Shown here one piece after another: positions 27,501 to 36,555 of a DNA stretch of 64,000 bases. Below the pieces are notes generated by a model, which saw only the letters and a program-made list of their open reading frames with translations, did not search any database and was not told where the DNA came from. Numbering within the stretch: position 1 is the first letter of the stretch; each line of letters opens with the position of its first letter. The position numbers and the translations under genes were made by a program. The DNA comes from Christiangramia forsetii KT0803 (GTDB lineage Bacteria; Bacteroidota; Bacteroidia; Flavobacteriales; Flavobacteriaceae): NCBI RefSeq assembly GCF_000060345.1, contig NC_008571.1, forward strand, positions 1,612,001 to 1,676,000, in the 5' to 3' direction.

Positions 27501-27903
27501 TTTTATACCTAAAGCCGTTGCTTCTAGATCTATGCAAAATAGAACAGAAAAAGTTCTATTCGCCATTTTACTCATATACATATTTAAACTATAATGTACC
27601 GCATTATGTTACTTTGCTTTGGTAAAAGCGAAGTAATAACTACAATATTTCTTTAAAAAAATCTTATCAAATGCCTTTTTTACAATGTTAATGGAACACT
27701 TTTTATGCGACGACGTTAGGAGGGAAGCATAATGTGTGTGGAATGGTATGTTTTCCTTTATTTCAATACGGTTTTCCGTAATATATTACTTGTTAAAATT
27801 CTGTATATTTGAGTATTACATTTTGCTATGTGTAATTCTACCCTACAGAATATTATCTAATCGCTCTAAATCTAAACTAGAGTAAACTAATAAAAGAAAA
27901 AGT
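27501..27903. other. Intergenic left border of the accessory island
   Basis: 403 A+T-rich bases without a gene. Base composition becomes more A+T-rich from here on. It contains a promoter box at 27804-27811; no attachment site or integrase was found. Confidence 0.5.
27804..27811 (+). promoter_or_regulatory. -7 promoter box (TATATTTG) for the DUF2779 gene
   Basis: A full match to TAnnTTTG, 92 bp before the start codon. It would drive the DUF2779 gene and, before the IS insertions, the WYL gene behind it. Confidence 0.5.
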
Positions 27904-29871
27904 ATGAGAGTTCTTTCAAAATCAAGATTCAAATTAGGGCTTGAATGTCCAAATAAACTTTTTTATACCAATAATAAGGAATACGCAAATACTAAAAATG
28001 AAGATTCCTTTTTAGAAGCATTGGCTCAAGGAGGTTTTCAAGTTGAAGAACTGGCAAGAATGCACTATCCTAATGGCATTTTAATTGAAGGAAATGACTG
28101 GGACTACCAACTTTTATCGAACCAAACGAAAGAATTATTAAAAGAAGAGAACGTTATTATTTATGAAGCTGCTTTTTTAGTAGATGGATTATTTATTAGG
28201 ACTGATATATTAGTTAAAAAAGGTAATAATATTGAGTTAATAGAAGTTAAGTCAAAATCATTTACACCAGATGATGATTATATATTTATTGGTAAAAGCA
28301 GAAAAATGTTAGCTGGTTGGAAACCATATTTATTTGATGTTGCTTTTCAAAAATATGTAATGCAATTATGTTATCCAGACTGGGATATTAAGTCTTTTAT
28401 TATGATGGCTGATAAATCTAAAAAAGCGAGTATAGATAGTTTAAATCAATTATTTAGGATTAGTAATAAAGAAGATAATCGTACTGGAATAATTAAAAAA
28501 GTAAATTCATTAAATGAAACTGGGAATTCAGTTTTGGGAAGAAAAAACATCACTGATATTATTGCAGAAATTGAATTAAATAAACATTTATACCATAGTA
28601 ATTTAGATTTTAAGAAATCTATTAACTTATTTAAAGAATTATATAAAAATAATGAATACGCTAATTGGCCTACTACTTTTAGTGCCTGTAAAAAGTGTGA
28701 GTTCAAATCATCTAATAAAACTAATCAAGATTTAAAATCTGGTTTTAGAGAATGTTTTAGTAAGCAGCATAATTGGAAAGAAAAAGAATTTAATGAGCCT
28801 AATACTTTTGATATTTATGACTTTCGAAAAGGAACAAAACTATTTGATGAAGGAGTTTTTTTTAAAAAAGATCTTACGGAAGATAGTATTGGATTAAAAG
28901 AAGAAGCCGAAAAGCTTACAACATCTCATAGACAATGGTTGCAAATTGAAAAAGAAGTAAATAATGATGATACTATTTATGCTGATATTGAAGGTCTGAA
29001 AAAAGAAATTGATAATTGGAATTATCCTTTACATTTTATTGATTTTGAAACAAGTACTGTTGCATTACCTTTTAATAAAAATCTAAGACCATATGAACAA
29101 ACAGCTTTTCAATTTTCACATCATATATATTATGAAGATGGAACAATAGAACACGCAAATGAATATATAAATAATATAGCAGGAGTATTTCCTAATTTTG
29201 AGTTTATTAGAGCCTTACAAAATGCTTTGGGAAATGATAATGGAACAATATTTAGGTATTCACACCATGAAAATACAATTCTAAATGCTATATATGTTCA
29301 ATTATTGGACTCAAATGAAAAAGACAAAGATGATTTAATAACTTTCATTGAAAACATTTCTCACTCTAAAAGAGATAGTACTATAAAATGGCAAGGGGAA
29401 AGAGATATGGTAGATTTATGGGAAATTGAAAAACGTTATTATTACAATCCTATTACAAAAGGTTCTAATTCAATAAAAGCTGTTTTACCAGCATCACTAA
29501 ATTCTAGTAAATATTTAAAAGAAAAATATTCAAAACCAATAAATGAAATAAAAATTACAAGTAAGAATTTTTCTAAAGAACATATTTGGTTAGAAATTGA
29601 AAATGATATTGTAAAAAATCCCTATGAAATGTTACCTCCAGTTTTCCAAGATTGGAGTGAAGATGAAATAGAAAAAACATTATCTGAAATAGAAGGTATT
29701 GCAGATGGTGGAGCAGCATTAACAGCATATGGTAAATTACAGTATACAGATATGGAGCAAGCCGAAGTAGATAAAATAACTTCTGCCTTACTAAAATATT
29801 GTGAACTAGACACTTTAGCAATGGTTATGATTTTCGAACAGACACTGTCCCGTAAAGTGTGTAAAGTTTAA
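27904..29871 (+). CDS. DUF2779 nuclease-like protein, C-terminus altered by IS256
   Basis: 655 residues as it stands. The N-terminal part looks like a Cas4/RecB-type PD-(D/E)xK nuclease: D101 and E114-V-K116 (TDIL...IELIEVKS), and four cysteines placed like an Fe-S cluster (C15 in LECPNK, C262 and C265 in SACKKCEF, C284 in RECF). From ~378 the DUF2779 part begins with FIDFET, the first acidic motif of DEDD exonucleases. The last ten residues come from the IS256 end: the natural tail HFKELIDSI lies beyond the element at 31176-31211. Base use is A+T-rich like the rest of the island. Role in defence or DNA/RNA processing is inferred. Confidence 0.85.
   Translation: MRVLSKSRFKLGLECPNKLFYTNNKEYANTKNEDSFLEALAQGGFQVEELARMHYPNGILIEGNDWDYQLLSNQTKELLKEENVIIYEAAFLVDGLFIRTDILVKKGNNIELIEVKSKSFTPDDDYIFIGKSRKMLAGWKPYLFDVAFQKYVMQLCYPDWDIKSFIMMADKSKKASIDSLNQLFRISNKEDNRTGIIKKVNSLNETGNSVLGRKNITDIIAEIELNKHLYHSNLDFKKSINLFKELYKNNEYANWPTTFSACKKCEFKSSNKTNQDLKSGFRECFSKQHNWKEKEFNEPNTFDIYDFRKGTKLFDEGVFFKKDLTEDSIGLKEEAEKLTTSHRQWLQIEKEVNNDDTIYADIEGLKKEIDNWNYPLHFIDFETSTVALPFNKNLRPYEQTAFQFSHHIYYEDGTIEHANEYINNIAGVFPNFEFIRALQNALGNDNGTIFRYSHHENTILNAIYVQLLDSNEKDKDDLITFIENISHSKRDSTIKWQGERDMVDLWEIEKRYYYNPITKGSNSIKAVLPASLNSSKYLKEKYSKPINEIKITSKNFSKEHIWLEIENDIVKNPYEMLPPVFQDWSEDEIEKTLSEIEGIADGGAALTAYGKLQYTDMEQAEVDKITSALLKYCELDTLAMVMIFEQTLSRKVCKV
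29832..29840. repeat. 9-bp target duplication of IS256, left copy
   Basis: TTTCGAACA directly before the IS; the same nine bases follow the right end at 31175-31183. Confidence 0.9.
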
Positions 29872-31174
29872 ATAACAGGGGTTGGACTTTTTTAAAGTCT
29901 GACCCTTTTTTCATAGATCGTAAGGAACTGATTTAAAATAATGCCCCAGTTCCTGATAGGCATTGACCACTTCTTTGTAGCTTCCCTTGTAGCCAAATAT
30001 ACAGATTTCATTACTGCTTCATCAGTAGGGAAGGATAATTTGTTTTTAGTGTATTTTCTTATTTTTCCGTTCAGGTTTTCAATAAGATTGGTGGTATAAA
30101 TGATTTTCCTGATCTCCAGTGGAAACTCAAAGAACACGGTAAGATCTTCCCAGTTGTCCCTCCAGCTTTTGATGGCATAGGAATATTTGCTCTCCCATTG
30201 TGCTGCAAAATCTTCCAGGGCAGCTTTGGCGGCCTGTTGGTTGGGAGCATTGTAAATATGCTTCATATCAGCGGTAAAGGCTTTTTTATCTTTCCAGACC
30301 ACATAACGGCAAGCATTCCTGATCTGGTGCACCACACAGATCTGGGTTTTAGACGCTGGGAAGATATTTCTGATGGTATCGGTAAAGCCATTGAGGTTAT
30401 CGGTAGCGGTGATCAGGATATCTTCGGTGCCCCGTGATTTTATATCGGTAAGTACAGACATCCAGAAAGCTGACGACTCATTTTTTCCCAACCAAAGCCC
30501 CAGGACTTCTTTCTTTCCATCCCTGCGAAGCCCGACTGCTATGTACACCGTCTTGTTGATTACCTTGGAGTTCTCTCGAACCTTGAAGACAATCCCATCC
30601 ATCCAAACGATCAGGTACACAGGCTCTAAAGGTCGGTTTTGCCAGGCCACAATATCTTCGGTTACTTTCTCGGTAATCCTGGATATGGTGGAAGTAGAGA
30701 CTTCAAAATTATAGACCTCTCGAATTTGCTCTTCAATATCACTATTGCTCATTCCTTTGGCATAGAGCGAGACAATCACGTTTTCAATGCCATCGACCAT
30801 ATTGCCACGCTTGGGTACAATCATAGGAGTAAAGGATGCTTCACGATCCCTGGGGACCTGGATCTGGGATTCACCAAAGGAGGTGCGAACCTTTTTCTGG
30901 CCATAGCCGTTACGGGTATTAGAGTTACCAGACTTCTGGCTTTTGTCATAACCTAAATGACCATCGAGCTCTCCTTCGAGCATTTTTTCAATACCACGCT
31001 TTTGCAGTTCTTTTAAGAAGCTGTTGAGCTGATCTCCACTTTTGAACTGCTTTAAAAATTCATCGCTAAATAAATCTTCTTTTTTCATACTGTGTAAAAT
31101 TTAAAATTAGACAAAAAAATAACAGGGGTCGCGACCCCTGTTATTTTCTATTTACACAGTTTATGAGATAGTGC
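29841..31174 (-). mobile_element. IS256-family insertion sequence
   Basis: 1334 bp. Imperfect inverted ends (left GACACTGTCCCGTAAAGTGT, right read inward GCACTATCTCATAAACTGTG) continue into matching TGTGTAAA and AATAACAGGGGT blocks at 29858-29884 and 31132-31158. Flanked by a perfect 9-bp duplication, within the family's usual 8-9 bp. It carries one transposase gene and looks intact. Confidence 0.95.
29892..31088 (-). CDS. IS256-family transposase
   Basis: 398 residues, the normal length for Mutator-like IS256 transposases. N-terminal [16 protein letters not shown]-type region ([10 protein letters not shown]), then the DDE core: WMDGIVFKV (first Asp), [14 protein letters not shown] (second Asp), [13 protein letters not shown] and [13 protein letters not shown] (Glu). 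No stop or frameshift, so it is probably active. It lies inside IS ends at 29841 and 31174. Confidence 0.96.
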
Positions 31175-31183
31175 TTTCGAACA
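31175..31183. repeat. 9-bp target duplication of IS256, right copy
   Basis: TTTCGAACA, identical to 29832-29840. Confidence 0.9.
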
Positions 31184-31211
31184 CTTTAAAGAACTTATAG
31201 ATTCCATTTAG
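31176..31211 (+). pseudogene. Severed C-terminal tail of the DUF2779 gene
   Basis: Codons for FEHFKELIDSI and a TAG stop. Joining 29840 to 31184 (one target copy removed) reads on without a break from VMIFE to HFKELIDSI, giving an ancestral protein of 654 residues. The stop lies 3 bp before the ancestral WYL start at 31215. Confidence 0.9.
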
Positions 31212-31222
31212 ATTATGCCAAA

Positions 31223-31225
31223 TAA
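31223..31225. repeat. 3-bp target duplication of IS3, left copy
   Basis: TAA before the IS left end TGA; matched by TAA at 32480-32482. Short, but the WYL frame is restored exactly when one copy is removed. Confidence 0.8.
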
Positions 31226-31285
31226 TGAAGTACCCCCATTTATTAGGACAGCTTAGCTGCTAAATTAAGTTCTATTTTTCATTTA

Positions 31286-32116
31286 TTAGGCAGCTTTTCT
31301 TTCTTGTTCTAAATATCGGTTAAGGGGTATTTCATTTTCTATTCCCTGATGTCTTCTTCGATGGTTATAAAAATCAAAATAGTTTTCTAGTTGTTTGTAA
31401 AGATCTACTCCAGATTCTGGCGGATTGAGATAGATGCTTTCATATTTCACACTTCTCCAGAGGCGTTCTATAAACACATTATCTATAGCCCTTCCTTTGC
31501 CATCCATACTGAGTTTAATGTTCTTAGAGAGTACACTATGAGTAAAAACCTCCGAGGTGAACTGACTTCCCTGATCAGTATTGAGTATCTCAGGCTTGCC
31601 ATGTACGTCAATGGCTTCTTCTAAAGTTTCTTTACACCACTGGGCATCCATGGAATTGGATACCGACCAGTTGAGTACATAGCGGCTATGCAGGTCGATG
31701 ATCGCTACCAGGTACATAAAACCTTTCCGCATCGGTATGTAAGTAATATCGATTGCCCAAACTTGATTGGGACGATCTACCTTCAAGTTCCGCAACAAGT
31801 AAGGATATACCTTATGTTCTTTATTGCGTCTGGAGGTATGCTTCCCAGGCATAATGGCCTGAAGCCCCATCACTCTGGAATATAAACGCTCAATACGTTT
31901 TTTATTGATCGTATATCCTTTATCCATCGTAAGCCAGGTATGCATCCGCCTGGCACCTTTAAAGGGATGATCGGTATAATGTTCATCCATCAGGCGCATC
32001 AGTTCTAAATTGAGCGTGCTTTCTCCGCGGGGTTTATAATAAATTCCGCTGCGGTGGATTTGCAATAGCCTGCATTGTCGCTGTAGGCTGAGTTTTGAAT
32101 GATCCTTGCTTATCAT
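31286..32116 (-). CDS. IS3-family transposase OrfB (integrase core)
   Basis: 276 residues from its own ATG; in vivo it is probably made as an OrfAB fusion. HTH_21-like N-terminus (YTDHPFKGARRMHTWL), then the rve DDE core: VWAIDITYIPMRKG (D), LNTDQGSQFTSEVF (D) and NVFIERLWRSVKYE (E). Uninterrupted. The -1 frame upstream is open to the slippery site at 32152-32158. Confidence 0.95.
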   Translation of the reverse strand: MISKDHSKLSLQRQCRLLQIHRSGIYYKPRGESTLNLELMRLMDEHYTDHPFKGARRMHTWLTMDKGYTINKKRIERLYSRVMGLQAIMPGKHTSRRNKEHKVYPYLLRNLKVDRPNQVWAIDITYIPMRKGFMYLVAIIDLHSRYVLNWSVSNSMDAQWCKETLEEAIDVHGKPEILNTDQGSQFTSEVFTHSVLSKNIKLSMDGKGRAIDNVFIERLWRSVKYESIYLNPPESGVDLYKQLENYFDFYNHRRRHQGIENEIPLNRYLEQERKAA

Positions 32117-32139
32117 TGTTCTACGCTCCTTTAAAGGTT

Positions 32140-32415
32140 TTATCGCAAGGCGTTTTTTAAAAAATCATTTTCCACTTTTAGCTCCCCAATTACTTTAAGG
32201 AGTTGGTCTTTCTTTTCCTCTTCTTCTGATTTCTTAGACTTACTTCCTTTAGAAAAGACCGCATCAGCATCTTTTAAAAATTCTCGTTTCCAGGTACTGA
32301 TTTGTTGCGGAGTGATTTCAAATTTTTGTGCGAGTTCCTGAGTCGTTTGACGCTCTTTTAGCGATTCAAGGACTACTTTCGTTTTGAACTTTGAGGTGAA
32401 TTTTCTTCGTGTCAT
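32140..32415 (-). CDS. IS3-family transposase OrfA (HTH)
   Basis: 91 residues: MTRRKFTSKFKTKVVLESLK and a helix-turn-helix (QELAQKFEITPQQISTWKREFL), then a leucine-zipper-like end (LLKVIGELKVENDFLKNAL). It ends just after a slippery heptamer that allows fusion to OrfB. Confidence 0.95.
   Translation of the reverse strand: MTRRKFTSKFKTKVVLESLKERQTTQELAQKFEITPQQISTWKREFLKDADAVFSKGSKSKKSEEEEKKDQLLKVIGELKVENDFLKNALR
32152..32158 (-). promoter_or_regulatory. Programmed -1 frameshift site (A_AAA_AAC)
   Basis: On the minus strand A AAA AAC sits in the orfA frame (TTA AAA AAC). Slipping back one base reads AAA AAA CGC CTT and continues openly into OrfB. CCTTTAAAGG just downstream could form a small stimulating hairpin. 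Confidence 0.75.
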
Positions 32416-33503
32416 AATACAGTAAAATTAAAGTTATTTTTGAACTTAACTTACTGTCCTAATTTTAGGGGGATGATCATAATAAAGAAGCTTTAAAAAG
32501 ATATAGAATTATTCATAGCGTACTTAGAAGGGGAGGTAAGCATAAATCAAGTAGAATTACGGAAATATGTAACGAAGCTGGTATTCCTGTTAGTATCAGA
32601 ACTATACAAAAAGACTTAAGTGATTTAGCAGAAGATACTGAACTAGCTTTATTTCTACCTATAAAGCAAGATAAGAGTACAAAAACTTATTATTACGAAG
32701 TAATACCTGAAAATATTTTCCCTTCCATTGAGTTAGAAAAAGAGGAAGTTAATGCATTATTATTCTATGCTAAAACAATTAGACAATACAAAGAATACCC
32801 AATCTTTAATGAGATTTCTAATGCTGTAAAGAAGGTGATTGAAAATTCAAATATTTCTCCTAAAACTAAAGAACTTTTTGAAAAAGAAACTTTATTAGAG
32901 ACAGAAAATCATCATCACATTAATGGAATAGAATTAATAGCAGACATACTAGATTCAATAACTAAAAAGAAAGTTATTGAAATTGAATATCAAAAATTTG
33001 ATGGTAATTCTAAAGTTCATAAAATCAAACCTATTTTATTGAAGGAAGATAAACAAATGTGGTATATATTGGGAATAAATATTAAATATAATAGATTAAT
33101 AACTTTTGCATTAGATAGAATAATTGATATAACAGTTACTAAAGAAGAGTTTGATACTATTGAATTTGATAGTTTAGAATATTTTAAATATTCCTTTGGA
33201 ATTACAGTTTCTGATGACGAACCTATAGAAGTTGTAATTAATTTTAATCCAAAACAAGGAAATTATCTTAAAACACTTCCTATTCATAATACTCAAGAAA
33301 TTATAGAAGATAATAACGAAAAATTTATTATTAAGGTAAAAGTAAAGCCATCATATGAATTTTATTCAAAAATTTTTAGCTATGGTTCAGATGCTACAAT
33401 TATATCTCCAAAGCCAATTATAGATAGAGTTTTAAAGACTTTTGAAAAGGCCGTAAACAAATATAATTCCAATTAATTATTAAATAAATTGATCTTTTTT
33501 TAA

Positions 33504-33524
33504 TGGCGCAAGTAGGTTGCGCCA
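33504..33524 (+). terminator. Strong hairpin between WYL and ubl genes
   Basis: TGGCGCAA and TTGCGCCA pair perfectly (8 bp) around GTAGG, 28 bp past the WYL stop. The following TGTTGTTATTTATTTG is moderately U-rich, so it can be an intrinsic terminator or attenuator that separates the Ubl operon from the gene upstream. Confidence 0.6.
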
Positions 33525-33578
33525 TGTTGTTATTTATTTGTACCATAAATTATTGTTTAATTCCAAAAAAATAAAAAA

Positions 33579-33848
33579 ATGGATAACAAATTAAAAAAAG
33601 AAGACAAAAAAAAGATGGTAACTATTATAGTTAATGGTACACCATATGAAGAAGAAAAAAATGAGATAACTTATGAAGAAGTAGTTACACTAGCATTTTC
33701 TGATTTCCCTCAACACCCTGAAAGAACTTATTCAGTTACTTATGAAAGAGGACAAGGAAATAAACCTACTGGAATTTTATCTCCAGGTGGAAAAGTTAGA
33801 GTAAAAAAAGGAATGACTTTTAAAGTTAAACATACTGGACAATCTTAA
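33579..33848 (+). CDS. Ubiquitin-like protein (multiubiquitin-domain type)
   Basis: 89 residues. After a Lys-rich lead (1-12) a single beta-grasp domain runs from MVTIIVNGTPYEEE (13-26) through ITYEEVVTLAF (30-40) and YSVTYERGQG (51-60) to GKVRVKKGMTFKV (71-83). This is the pattern of the prokaryotic Multi_ubiq family. It ends HTGQS with no Gly-Gly, as usual for that family. It is the first gene of a tight operon with an E1-like enzyme 6 bp downstream, which supports a role as the conjugated modifier. A short lead before the domain makes MVTI (residue 13) an alternative start. Confidence 0.85.
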   Translation: MDNKLKKEDKKKMVTIIVNGTPYEEEKNEITYEEVVTLAFSDFPQHPERTYSVTYERGQGNKPTGILSPGGKVRVKKGMTFKVKHTGQS

Positions 33849-33854
33849 ATTGAA

Positions 33855-35030
33855 ATGATAGTAAGTTTAGCAAAAAATAATGAGGATATTGATAGATTAC
33901 TAAAAAAAGGGTATGCTTTATCAATAGATAGCAATCATCTAGTTATTAGAGATATACCTTATATAGACAATAATGGAAACCTTCAAATTGGTGCAATAGT
34001 TTCAATAGTAAATTTTATTAACCAAAATAAAATGAGCATGAGAGACCATCAAATATTTTTTTGTGGTAGTCCTCCTTATGAATTGAACGGAAAACCAATT
34101 AGAAATCTTGGTGGTGGTGCAACATCAATTCATTTGACATCAAAAGATTTAGTTGTGCAAAGGTCTTTTTCTAACAAACCTCCAAGTGGAAAGTTTAAAG
34201 ATTGGTTCGAAAAAATTGAAAATTATGTTACCATAATTTCTGGACCAGCTATGGATAAATTTGATGCTAATCCTTATACTTTTAGAGTAGTTGATGAAAA
34301 TTATAAGTCAGTATTTAAATTTAGAGATACTCTAACAAGTAGGGCAGAAATAGGAGAGTTAAGTGCTAAACTTGAAGAAGATACAATTGCTATTATTGGT
34401 CTGGGAGGAACAGGTTCTTACCTTTTAGATTTTTTGGTAAAAACTCCAGTTAAAGAAATTAAAGGGTTTGATGGAGATTGGTATCATGTTCATAATGCAT
34501 TCCGTTCCCCAGGAAAATTAGATGAAGAAGAATTAGGTAAAAGAAAAACAGAGGTCTATAAAAACCGTTATCAAAATTTCCGTAGCAATGTAAATATTTA
34601 CTCAAATTATATTACTTGTGATTCAGAAGATGATTTGACTGGAGTTACTTTTGTTTTTGTGTGTGTTGATAGTGGAGATTCTCGAAGAGAAATATTTGAT
34701 TTACTTGTAAAACTAAAAATTCCATTTATAGATGTAGGTATGGGATTAGATAAAGATACTGGGTTAGTAAGTGGCACACTTCGTACTACATATTTTCCTA
34801 CTGAATCTGCACAAAGCATTATAGATAAAAGGCTAGCTCCATTAACTGATATTCCCAATGATGTTTATAAAAGTAATATTCAAATTTCAGAACTTAACGC
34901 TTTAAATGCTTGTTTAGCGGTTATAAAATATAAACAAATAAGAGGTTTTTATTTGGATGACAATTCATATTTCCACATGTTATTTAACGTTGATGGAGTA
35001 AATTTAGTAGGGGAGAATGGGAAAAATTAA
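33855..35030 (+). CDS. E1-like ThiF-family adenylyltransferase with N-terminal extension
   Basis: 391 residues. From ~177 it is a ThiF/E1 adenylation domain: AIIGLGGTGSYLLDFL (ATP-binding G182LGGTGS188), GFDGDWYHVHNAFRSPG (Asp and Arg of the active site) and VFVCVDSGDSRR (265-278). The zinc CxxC pair of ThiF/MoeB is absent. Residues 1-~165 are a separate domain (DUF6791-type); its start, LLKKGYALSIDSNHLVIRDIP, resembles prokaryotic E2 family E, so it may be an E2-like or degenerate E2 domain fused in cis. The enzyme would activate the 89-residue Ubl. Its end overlaps the next gene by 14 bp. Confidence 0.88.
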   Translation: MIVSLAKNNEDIDRLLKKGYALSIDSNHLVIRDIPYIDNNGNLQIGAIVSIVNFINQNKMSMRDHQIFFCGSPPYELNGKPIRNLGGGATSIHLTSKDLVVQRSFSNKPPSGKFKDWFEKIENYVTIISGPAMDKFDANPYTFRVVDENYKSVFKFRDTLTSRAEIGELSAKLEEDTIAIIGLGGTGSYLLDFLVKTPVKEIKGFDGDWYHVHNAFRSPGKLDEEELGKRKTEVYKNRYQNFRSNVNIYSNYITCDSEDDLTGVTFVFVCVDSGDSRREIFDLLVKLKIPFIDVGMGLDKDTGLVSGTLRTTYFPTESAQSIIDKRLAPLTDIPNDVYKSNIQISELNALNACLAVIKYKQIRGFYLDDNSYFHMLFNVDGVNLVGENGKN

Positions 35031-35436
35031 ATTATTAAAAGTTGAATATTTACCAAAAGACTTAGAGCAAGGAATACTATATGTTTCTGAAGAATTTGGT
35101 ATAGCTGGTCATTTGTGTCCATGTGGTTGTGATAATAAAATAATGACTCCATTAGACCCATCTGAATGGTCTTTCAAAGAAATAACTAATAAGCCAACTT
35201 TATATCCTTCAATTGGTAATTGGCAATTGCCTTGTAGGTCACACTACTGGATTACTAATGGAAACATTGAATGGTCATATGATTGGAGTGAAGAGGAAAT
35301 CATTGCTGGTCGTGAAGCAGAAGCAAGAAAAAGAAAAGCCTATTATGATGATTTAGAAGCAAAACAGACTAAAAAATCAATTTTTAGAAGAATTTCAAAT
35401 TGGTTTTTAAAATTAATATTAAATATTAAAAATTAA
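35017..35436 (+). CDS. DUF6527 zinc-binding protein of the Ubl operon
   Basis: 139 residues. The DUF6527 signature is clear: GHLCPCGC (H32, C34, C36, C38) and LPCRSHYWITNGNIEW (C73, H76), a likely metal site. DUF6527 proteins recur beside multiubiquitin-type Ubl and ThiF genes and are suspected peptidases or processing factors for the Ubl; that is from memory and inference. The C-terminus (IFRRISNWFLKLILNIKN) is hydrophobic with basic residues and could touch a membrane. Translation is coupled to the E1 gene. Confidence 0.85.
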   Translation: MGKIKLLKVEYLPKDLEQGILYVSEEFGIAGHLCPCGCDNKIMTPLDPSEWSFKEITNKPTLYPSIGNWQLPCRSHYWITNGNIEWSYDWSEEEIIAGREAEARKRKAYYDDLEAKQTKKSIFRRISNWFLKLILNIKN

Positions 35437-35449
35437 TAAATAGAAAATT

Positions 35450-35590
35450 ATGATTACAATCGAAGCAATTAAACCTGGTCCAAAACCTAAAAAGGATGAT
35501 GGCTCATTAGACAAAAGAAGGAGAGTTACTCCCGACAAAAAGAAAGATTATCCACCATTAAAAAAGCACAAACACAAAAAGGGCGATTAA
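35450..35590 (+). CDS. 46-residue lysine-rich small protein at the end of the Ubl operon
   Basis: An ATG 13 bp after the DUF6527 stop opens a 46-codon frame: MITIEAIKPGPKPKKDDG, then KRRRVTPDKKK and PPLKKHKHKKGD. 13 Lys and 3 Arg, several Pro, no hydrophobic core, so probably disordered. Position, strand and spacing fit the operon. Not recognised; it could be an accessory factor or a lysine-rich Ubl acceptor (speculation), or a chance frame. Confidence 0.55.
   Translation: MITIEAIKPGPKPKKDDGSLDKRRRVTPDKKKDYPPLKKHKHKKGD

Positions 35591-36555
<965 letters not shown>

Follow-up and report, generated by a model that had tools for sequence, protein, structure and literature searches.

Bub operon is the present name for the multi-ubiquitin kind of bacterial ubiquitin-like operon, which Iyer (2006) listed as type 6e. 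The available portion of the original description (PMC1779556) gives such loci one to three repeats of the ubiquitin-like protein (Ubl), a Zn-finger-like protein and, in a subset, an activating enzyme (E1) in which an uncharacterised N-terminal domain replaces the JAB domain. From the titles of PDB entries and from Pfam we infer that BubB is the conjugating enzyme (E2) and BubCD the E1-JAB protein, BubA being the Ubl. In the accessible text of PMC13373217, 219 of 544 Bub operons carry CapW or the CapH+CapP pair and 59 carry CapK+CapS; CapW is described there as a repressor until it is bound by single-stranded DNA (ssDNA), and the same paper states that phage protection by Bub operons has yet to be demonstrated. 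According to the part of PMC9122588 at hand, CapW binds imperfect palindromes that overlap the -10 site of the promoter. Here we consider an operon at positions 27904-35590 of a 64,000-nucleotide stretch (the window) of Christiangramia forsetii KT0803 (contig NC_008571.1, positions 1,612,001 to 1,676,000), in which a Bub-type core is preceded by a DUF2779 gene, predicted to encode a nuclease, and by a gene for a WYL regulator, and which has been entered by two insertion sequences (IS). With modest confidence, we favour a reading in which this is a mobile Bub-type operon fitted with a portable DUF2779-WYL-palindrome controller, which would repress the defence operon until DNA is damaged.

The genes of the operon all lie on the + strand. 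DUF2779 (PF11074, E-value 5e-23) occupies 27904-29871 and WYL and WCX domains (8e-11 and 6e-10) were found in 32835-33476, followed by the Ubl gene at 33579-33848 (89 aa; Multi_ubiq PF14452, 3e-13), the E1 gene at 33855-35030 (DUF6791, 1e-43, and ThiF, 3e-16), a DUF6527 gene for a putative zinc protein at 35017-35436 (7e-25) and a gene at 35450-35590 for a Lys-rich protein of 46 aa, here p46, which has no family match in Pfam. All of the other matches exceed the Pfam cut-offs, and the E1 additionally belongs to NCBIfam NF004803, with a score of 799 bits (cut-off 419). An earlier interpretation of the same DNA, made from the letters and open reading frames and referred to below as the sequence-only reading, had listed these same six genes, had likened the core to multiubiquitin-type systems and had held the downstream genes to be intact. 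We agree on each count: Ubl, E1, DUF6527 and p46 are uninterrupted, and the core is of the known type 6e kind as far as the available text of Iyer 2006 describes it, fitting the subset with another domain in the place of JAB (PMC1779556). The Ubl matches PDB 9cd2, a multi-ubiquitin domain protein (1e-4), and the AlphaFold model of the E1 (predicted local distance difference test score, pLDDT, 88) finds the Citrobacter BubCD structures as its top PDB matches. The likeness to Bub operons is therefore one of a Multi_ubiq-family Ubl with a ThiF E1, whereas the window E1, unlike the Citrobacter proteins (9ea4, 9eav), has DUF6791 rather than JAB and its Ubl ends in -TGQS. Among the genes of the window Pfam detected neither a separate E2 nor a JAB domain, which sets the locus apart from canonical Bub operons.

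It is the front end that is unusual. No DUF2779 or WYL is named in the type 6e description as far as that text was available (PMC1779556), whereas the window has both. CapH+CapP and CapK+CapS, as presented in the accessible text of PMC13373217, are exchangeable DNA-damage controllers placed ahead of Bub genes, much as DUF2779-WYL stands ahead of the core here, although they are other proteins and no DUF2779 was seen in that text. The sequence-only reading knew of no description of the combination, which holds in part: a WYL protein on a Bub operon is already in print in the available text of PMC13373217, and it is the presence of DUF2779 there that is new within the limited literature searched. 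In that search, whose coverage of journals and Bub papers was limited, no link of DUF2779/PF11074 to WYL or Ubl operons was found. We therefore regard a DUF2779 gene within the WYL front end of a Bub operon as probably new, as far as this literature goes.

An intact DUF2779-WYL-Ubl-E1-DUF6527-p46 order, free of IS, is present in Gramella sp. AN32 (locus L002) and in Hyunsoonleella flava (L043), as a check proposed in the sequence-only reading had sought, and Lacinutrix neustonica (L004) keeps this order but carries several frameshifts. That reading would have been refuted if no other genome had DUF2779 and WYL beside the Ubl genes, and L002 and L043 show that this is not the case. The DUF2779-WYL-Ubl combination thus exists without IS, and it is rare. 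The pair also occurs elsewhere. In L170, from the family of the window, DUF2779 (with one in-frame stop), WYL and a palindrome precede Multi_ubiq, Prok-E2_E, JAB-ThiF and DUF6527 genes, the JAB match being below the curated cut-off; in L114, from the same class, DUF2779 (frameshifted), WYL and another palindrome precede PycTM, PycC and an E2-like protein, which make up a Pycsar operon. Since DUF2779-WYL also stands before Pycsar, the pair is not specific to Ubl genes. This architecture in six loci (the window, L002, L004, L043, L170 and L114) supports the proposal that the nuclease is part of a portable WYL controller.

The WYL protein itself has the expected composition, with WYL and WCX domains in L043, L002, L170 and the piece in the window, corresponding to a winged helix-turn-helix (HTH)-WYL-WCX architecture; its HTH part is placed by alignment only, and no HTH family was reported in these four sequences. 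Between the WYL and Ubl genes of the window lies a palindrome, ATGGCGCAA-GTAGG-TTGCGCCAT (33503-33525), which is a candidate WYL operator or a terminator. Its arms, of 8-10 bp, are identical and in the same place before Ubl in the window, L002, L004, L043 and L170. A strict pattern found six records among 243 sequences, all from the window (with two copies of it), L002, L004 or L043; a relaxed pattern further hit L170 and L145, which duplicates it, L242, where the site is that of L002, and two unrelated places, in L046 and L228. L114 and L008, the latter with a lone WYL gene before Ubl, have different palindromes at the same place and different HTH sequences, and all of the palindromes precede TTTGTA. 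The likeness to CapW/BrxR, from the available portions of PMC9122588 and PMC9122601, is that of a WYL-WCX protein beside a defence operon with a palindrome at the promoter.

If the regulator works as CapW does, a dimer would hold the palindrome and silence the Ubl promoter, as its position suggests. Damaged DNA or phage DNA would give rise to ssDNA, which would bind the WYL domain and release the promoter, the sequence of events published for CapW. DUF2779 might process DNA ends and so make or trim the WYL ligand, or might be a co-induced effector, and this is the weakest step of the scheme. Once expressed, the E1 would activate the Ubl for attachment to targets.

A nuclease role for DUF2779 had been proposed in the sequence-only reading, and in substance we find it to be right. 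Among 48 aligned DUF2779 proteins (frames of at least 580 aa), C15, C262, C265, C284, D101, E114, K116 and Q149 are invariant in 48/48, as are D380, E382, D504, Y632 and D636. We take D101, E114/K116 and Q149, with the four cysteines, to be the D, ExK and Q motifs of a Cas4-like Fe-S nuclease, and D380/E382, D504 and Y632/D636 to be the DxE, D and YxxxD motifs of a DEDDy exonuclease; the gene would then encode two predicted nuclease domains. The available text of PMC3985635 places DUF2779 in clade F.17 of RNase H-like 3'-5' exonucleases, occurring with a DUF83 domain (PD-(D/E)XK-like), a likeness that extends to the predicted exonuclease and its partner domain, and no link to WYL or Ubl was seen in that text. 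PDB searches with DUF2779 by sequence and by profile gave no useful match, and an AlphaFold model, for which five rows served as input, scored poorly (pLDDT 37.5) and was left aside. We also observed DUF2779 split near the inter-domain linker in L170:9431-11398, L114:8337-10239 and L165, two by a stop and one by a frameshift, a split that marks either a domain border or a fission that is tolerated.

Several observations weigh against the proposed controller. Its nuclease is present in only 3/80 core loci, and an M78 peptidase is near 50/80 and WYL near 10/80 (seven after merging L035-L038, which share one verbatim stretch); these M78 and WYL counts rest on small home-made profiles rather than on Pfam, iterated at E 1e-4 and applied from 5 kb upstream to 7 kb downstream of the Ubl start. 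In L170, L114 and L004 the frame of DUF2779 is broken, so that the nuclease is perhaps dispensable or these loci dead. No Cas4-like domain was detected in DUF2779 by Pfam or PDB profile searches; a PDDEXK_1 match appeared in 1/23 members and was weak (E 0.07), with no useful match from the PDB profile search. CapW in CBASS (cyclic oligonucleotide-based antiphage signalling) is a divergent gene in the available part of PMC9122588, whereas the window WYL gene is co-directional and sits behind the nuclease gene. A WYL profile found the solved CapW structures only weakly (9c5g, E 4e-3; 7tb5, which we take to be CapW, 5e-4) and matched other WYL regulators better (PDB 7p5x, 4e-10), and the full L043 WYL protein gave no match in a single-sequence search of PDB. 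Within E1 residues 1-165, the DUF6791 part, no alignment column holds Cys in at least 15 of 58 rows. The possible E2-like N-terminus of the sequence-only reading is thus without a conserved cysteine, and a canonical E2 role is not supported; compared with a UBC or RWD fold, the model of this part has helices, strands and a helix, in that order.

The contexts of DUF2779 add to these points. We counted 45 full genes, leaving aside three partial pieces (L133 and L134). Six of the 45 have a WYL gene no more than 250 nt away, and in four of those six close pairs it precedes DUF2779, the order DUF2779-WYL being found in two. Within 2 kb, WYL accompanies 12/45, and no WYL was found for the remaining 33/45, some of whose flanks are too short. 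Elsewhere DUF2779 stands beside a PDC-S37-like helicase/nuclease (L172) and a dGTPase-like gene (L173). Contexts such as these, many of them lacking WYL or Ubl, would be expected if DUF2779 had no part in sensing and were a separate defence nuclease that shares a WYL-controlled operon, in the manner of the restriction systems upstream of CapK+CapS; the parallel is apparent in the accessible text of PMC13373217, where 88 of 443 capKS are directly downstream of restriction-modification systems. The retention of an ordered DUF2779-WYL-palindrome block before three operon types argues against such a separate role, which we consider a real possibility though a somewhat improbable one.

On its own genome DUF2779 has a single further relative, a second gene that is 50% identical (L112, 2680000-2699999) and the only other one found there. 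The genome has two WYL-domain matches in total, one in the operon and one 3.3 kb upstream of this second DUF2779 gene, and a predicted ATPase-like P-loop gene lies between the two. DUF2779 gave no match in annotated phages and no pattern match in viral contigs, and it is present in four plasmid records; for two of these the gene table, which is incomplete, holds no WYL or ubiquitin-like annotation within ~8 kb.

The palindrome too needs careful interpretation, and two further results count against its being an operator. A pattern scan finds it terminator-like (1 found against 0.0 expected), and 224 of 3000 intergenic shuffles yield a palindrome with arms as long or longer. At one locus the palindrome is therefore not significant alone, and the case rests on conservation between loci. 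The scan result would suit a rival reading in which the palindrome, as an intrinsic terminator or attenuator, keeps the transcript of DUF2779-WYL from running on into the Ubl genes while WYL acts elsewhere. Such an element requires pairing rather than a particular sequence, yet the arm sequence is the same in five loci despite diverged flanks, and L114 and L008, with their other HTH sequences, have other palindromes there, each again followed by TTTGTA. We consider a terminator unlikely for these reasons.

The histories of the parts were compared between loci. E1 of L001-L004 and L043 is 91-93% identical to that of the window. Between the window and L002, synonymous divergence (dS) is 0.30 for E1, 1.43 for DUF2779, 1.43 for WYL and 2.3 for the housekeeping aconitase; between L002 and L043 it is 0.54 for DUF2779 and 1.6 for WYL. 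These unequal values imply separate histories for nuclease, sensor and core, though the order recurs, and a single vertical inheritance of the whole operon was rejected because the dS of the front end is not that of the core. In L001 (Maribacter) and L003 (Aurantibacter), divergent genes for an XRE protein, an M78 peptidase and a reverse transcriptase are present instead of DUF2779-WYL, and XRE + M78 pairs occupy the front-end place in L001, L003 and L006. E1 of L001, with the XRE-M78-reverse transcriptase front, and that of L043, with the DUF2779-WYL front, differ by a dS of 0.07 despite these different front ends, which points to a recent swap. DNA homology between the window and L170 spans DUF2779 and WYL to 33576 and ends at the Ubl start, and the coding-part homology with L001 and L003 starts at 33594, inside the Ubl gene; the modules therefore meet at the Ubl start. 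The reverse transcriptase beside XRE-M78 was seen in 2/80 loci (L001:7443-8672 and L003:7442-8671), and 24/80 core loci have no M78, WYL or DUF2779. The ratio of nonsynonymous to synonymous divergence for Ubl, E1 and DUF6527 is 0.12-0.17 in the comparison with L043 and 0.14-0.35 in that with L002.

The mobility of the locus is suggested by its borders. A ~165-bp intergenic repeat, LE, forms the left cassette border (27582-27747), and a conserved non-coding stretch, RE, the right border (35600-36376); neither is assigned a strand, and both have copies in other loci. LE copies are 85% identical in L001, 79% in L043 and 77% in L003, and a match is present in 159/397 genomes of the family, own included, with two candidate stretches scored per genome. 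RE copies occur in L001, L003, L004 and L043 and beside other cassettes, and LE and RE together also flank the cores of L001, L003 and L043. In arrays (L221-L238, L003 and L172) LE copies run in the same direction, kilobases apart. Between copies lies a ParD/ParE pair in L231, a DNA methylase in L222 and a Bub core in L003, where a patatin-SMODS pair also adjoins one copy. LE may therefore be an undescribed cassette platform, to judge from these arrangements. The arrays were rejected as classical integrons, IntI (TIGR02249) exceeding its cut-off in none of 19 genomes, all of which show weaker tyrosine-recombinase matches. LE was likewise rejected as a structured RNA: 4/24 predicted pairs covary, but four folded copies gave z-scores of only -0.5 to -1.9, hardly better than shuffled sequence. 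Around the locus Rfam gave no match at the gathering score.

A platform of this kind could also have gathered unrelated defence genes between its repeats with no common mechanism, as the unrelated content of the cassettes flanked by LE and RE would suggest, together with the difference in history between front end and core (E1 dS 0.30 and DUF2779 dS 1.43 between the window and L002). Mere hitch-hiking fits poorly with genes that are on the same strand and a few bases apart, with a junction that carries the palindrome in five of the loci, and with the recurrence of the front end before Pycsar and a second Bub type, and we find it quite improbable. Two further loci are recorded here in their own right. 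The next Aurantibacter cassette, L003:12667-16425, encodes an HTH-Peptidase_S24 (LexA-like) regulator, patatin and a SMODS nucleotidyltransferase, and is a CBASS-like operon with another regulator of the DNA-damage type. At L238:9233-11074, next to an LE repeat, a Multi_ubiq Ubl comes after two other genes, one for a SocA_Panacea/MqsA-like antitoxin and one that is weakly MqsR-like.

Returning to the controller that we favour, its copy in this strain has been damaged by the two IS elements, both antisense to the operon, which the sequence-only reading had recognised correctly. The IS256-family element (29841-31174, - strand; Transposase_mut, 2e-108 in Pfam, at 29892-31088) lies in the end of DUF2779, between 9-bp direct repeats TTTCGAACA at 29832-29840 and 31175-31183. 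The present DUF2779 frame is not truncated: it is 655 aa long, of which the last ~10 residues derive from IS256. The element swaps out only the last few DUF2779 residues, and all 13 invariant positions are retained. Read by eye, the host DUF2779 stop TAG is at 31209-31211 and the WYL ATG at 31215, as a predicted 3-bp gap requires. The IS3-family element (31229-32472, - strand; frames 31286-32116 and 32140-32415, NCBIfam IS3, 6e-73, at 31286-32116) is inserted 14 bases into the WYL gene, severing the original start (31215-31228) from the body (32475-33476), in which the HTH part has no start codon. Its target duplication is weak: ATGA (31225-31228 and 32473-32476) fits, and 4-5 bp matches exist in other registers too. 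By hand count the uninterrupted WYL protein would be ~337 aa rather than the 334 aa first given. The frame after IS3 is open to the stop, for 333 aa, and its first in-frame ATG, GTG or TTG is a GTG at 32835, beyond the HTH part. With the WYL start codon and HTH lost, the core is predicted to be derepressed in this strain. In the mechanism that we propose, the core would then escape control, as IS3 has separated WYL from its start and HTH and has left DUF2779 and the core readable; derepression of an intact Ubl-p46 core, one of the two outcomes suggested in the sequence-only reading, would fit the anatomy.

The core can be followed much further than its front end. When genome contigs were scanned with the E1, 179 relatives came up, in many phyla, and all core-locus counts use 80 of these 179; given the stretch shared by L035-L038, the 80 are not all independent. 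Ubl adjoins E1 in 79/80 and DUF6527 is present in 79/80; Ubl, E1 and DUF6527 are adjacent and in order in the window, and 78/80 loci hold all three, L079 having no Ubl and L038 no DUF6527, both at a contig end. E1 relatives are present in 114 plasmid records and viral contigs gave one distant relative (L241, 34%), and within the genus the core is in 2/24 genomes, own included, the other being Gramella sp. AN32. Among the 79 Ubl genes of L001-L080 the C-terminus is -TGQS in 70 and -TGES in 5, and GG is absent from the last six residues in all 79. In an E1 alignment of 58 rows, the window and 57 of the 80 E1 loci, G182, G184, G185, G187, D206, R217, K231 and D272 are invariant in 58/58, leaving the adenylation site intact; we take these residues to have nucleotide-binding and adenylation-site roles. 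In DUF6527, C34, C36, C38, C73 and H76 are invariant in 78/78. Its C-terminal stretch is amphipathic, with W or F within the last 15 residues in 78/78 and a helical moment above its own shuffle mean in 67/78, and this end is possibly membrane-binding. The p46 gene follows DUF6527 in 5/80 loci (L001, L002, L003, L004 and L043). At L138:3232-3363, upstream of the Ubl gene in a more distant Ubl locus, a small basic protein is encoded that resembles p46 (19 bits) and shares its ending HKHKKGD; it may be a substrate or adaptor.

Bub operons have been newly defined, and a front end that would couple a nuclease to an ssDNA-type sensor, found ahead of Bub as well as Pycsar genes, gives a direct handle on the inducing signal. 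A natural strain with a broken sensor and an intact core lends itself, in addition, to asking how a cell fares when Ubl conjugation is no longer controlled.

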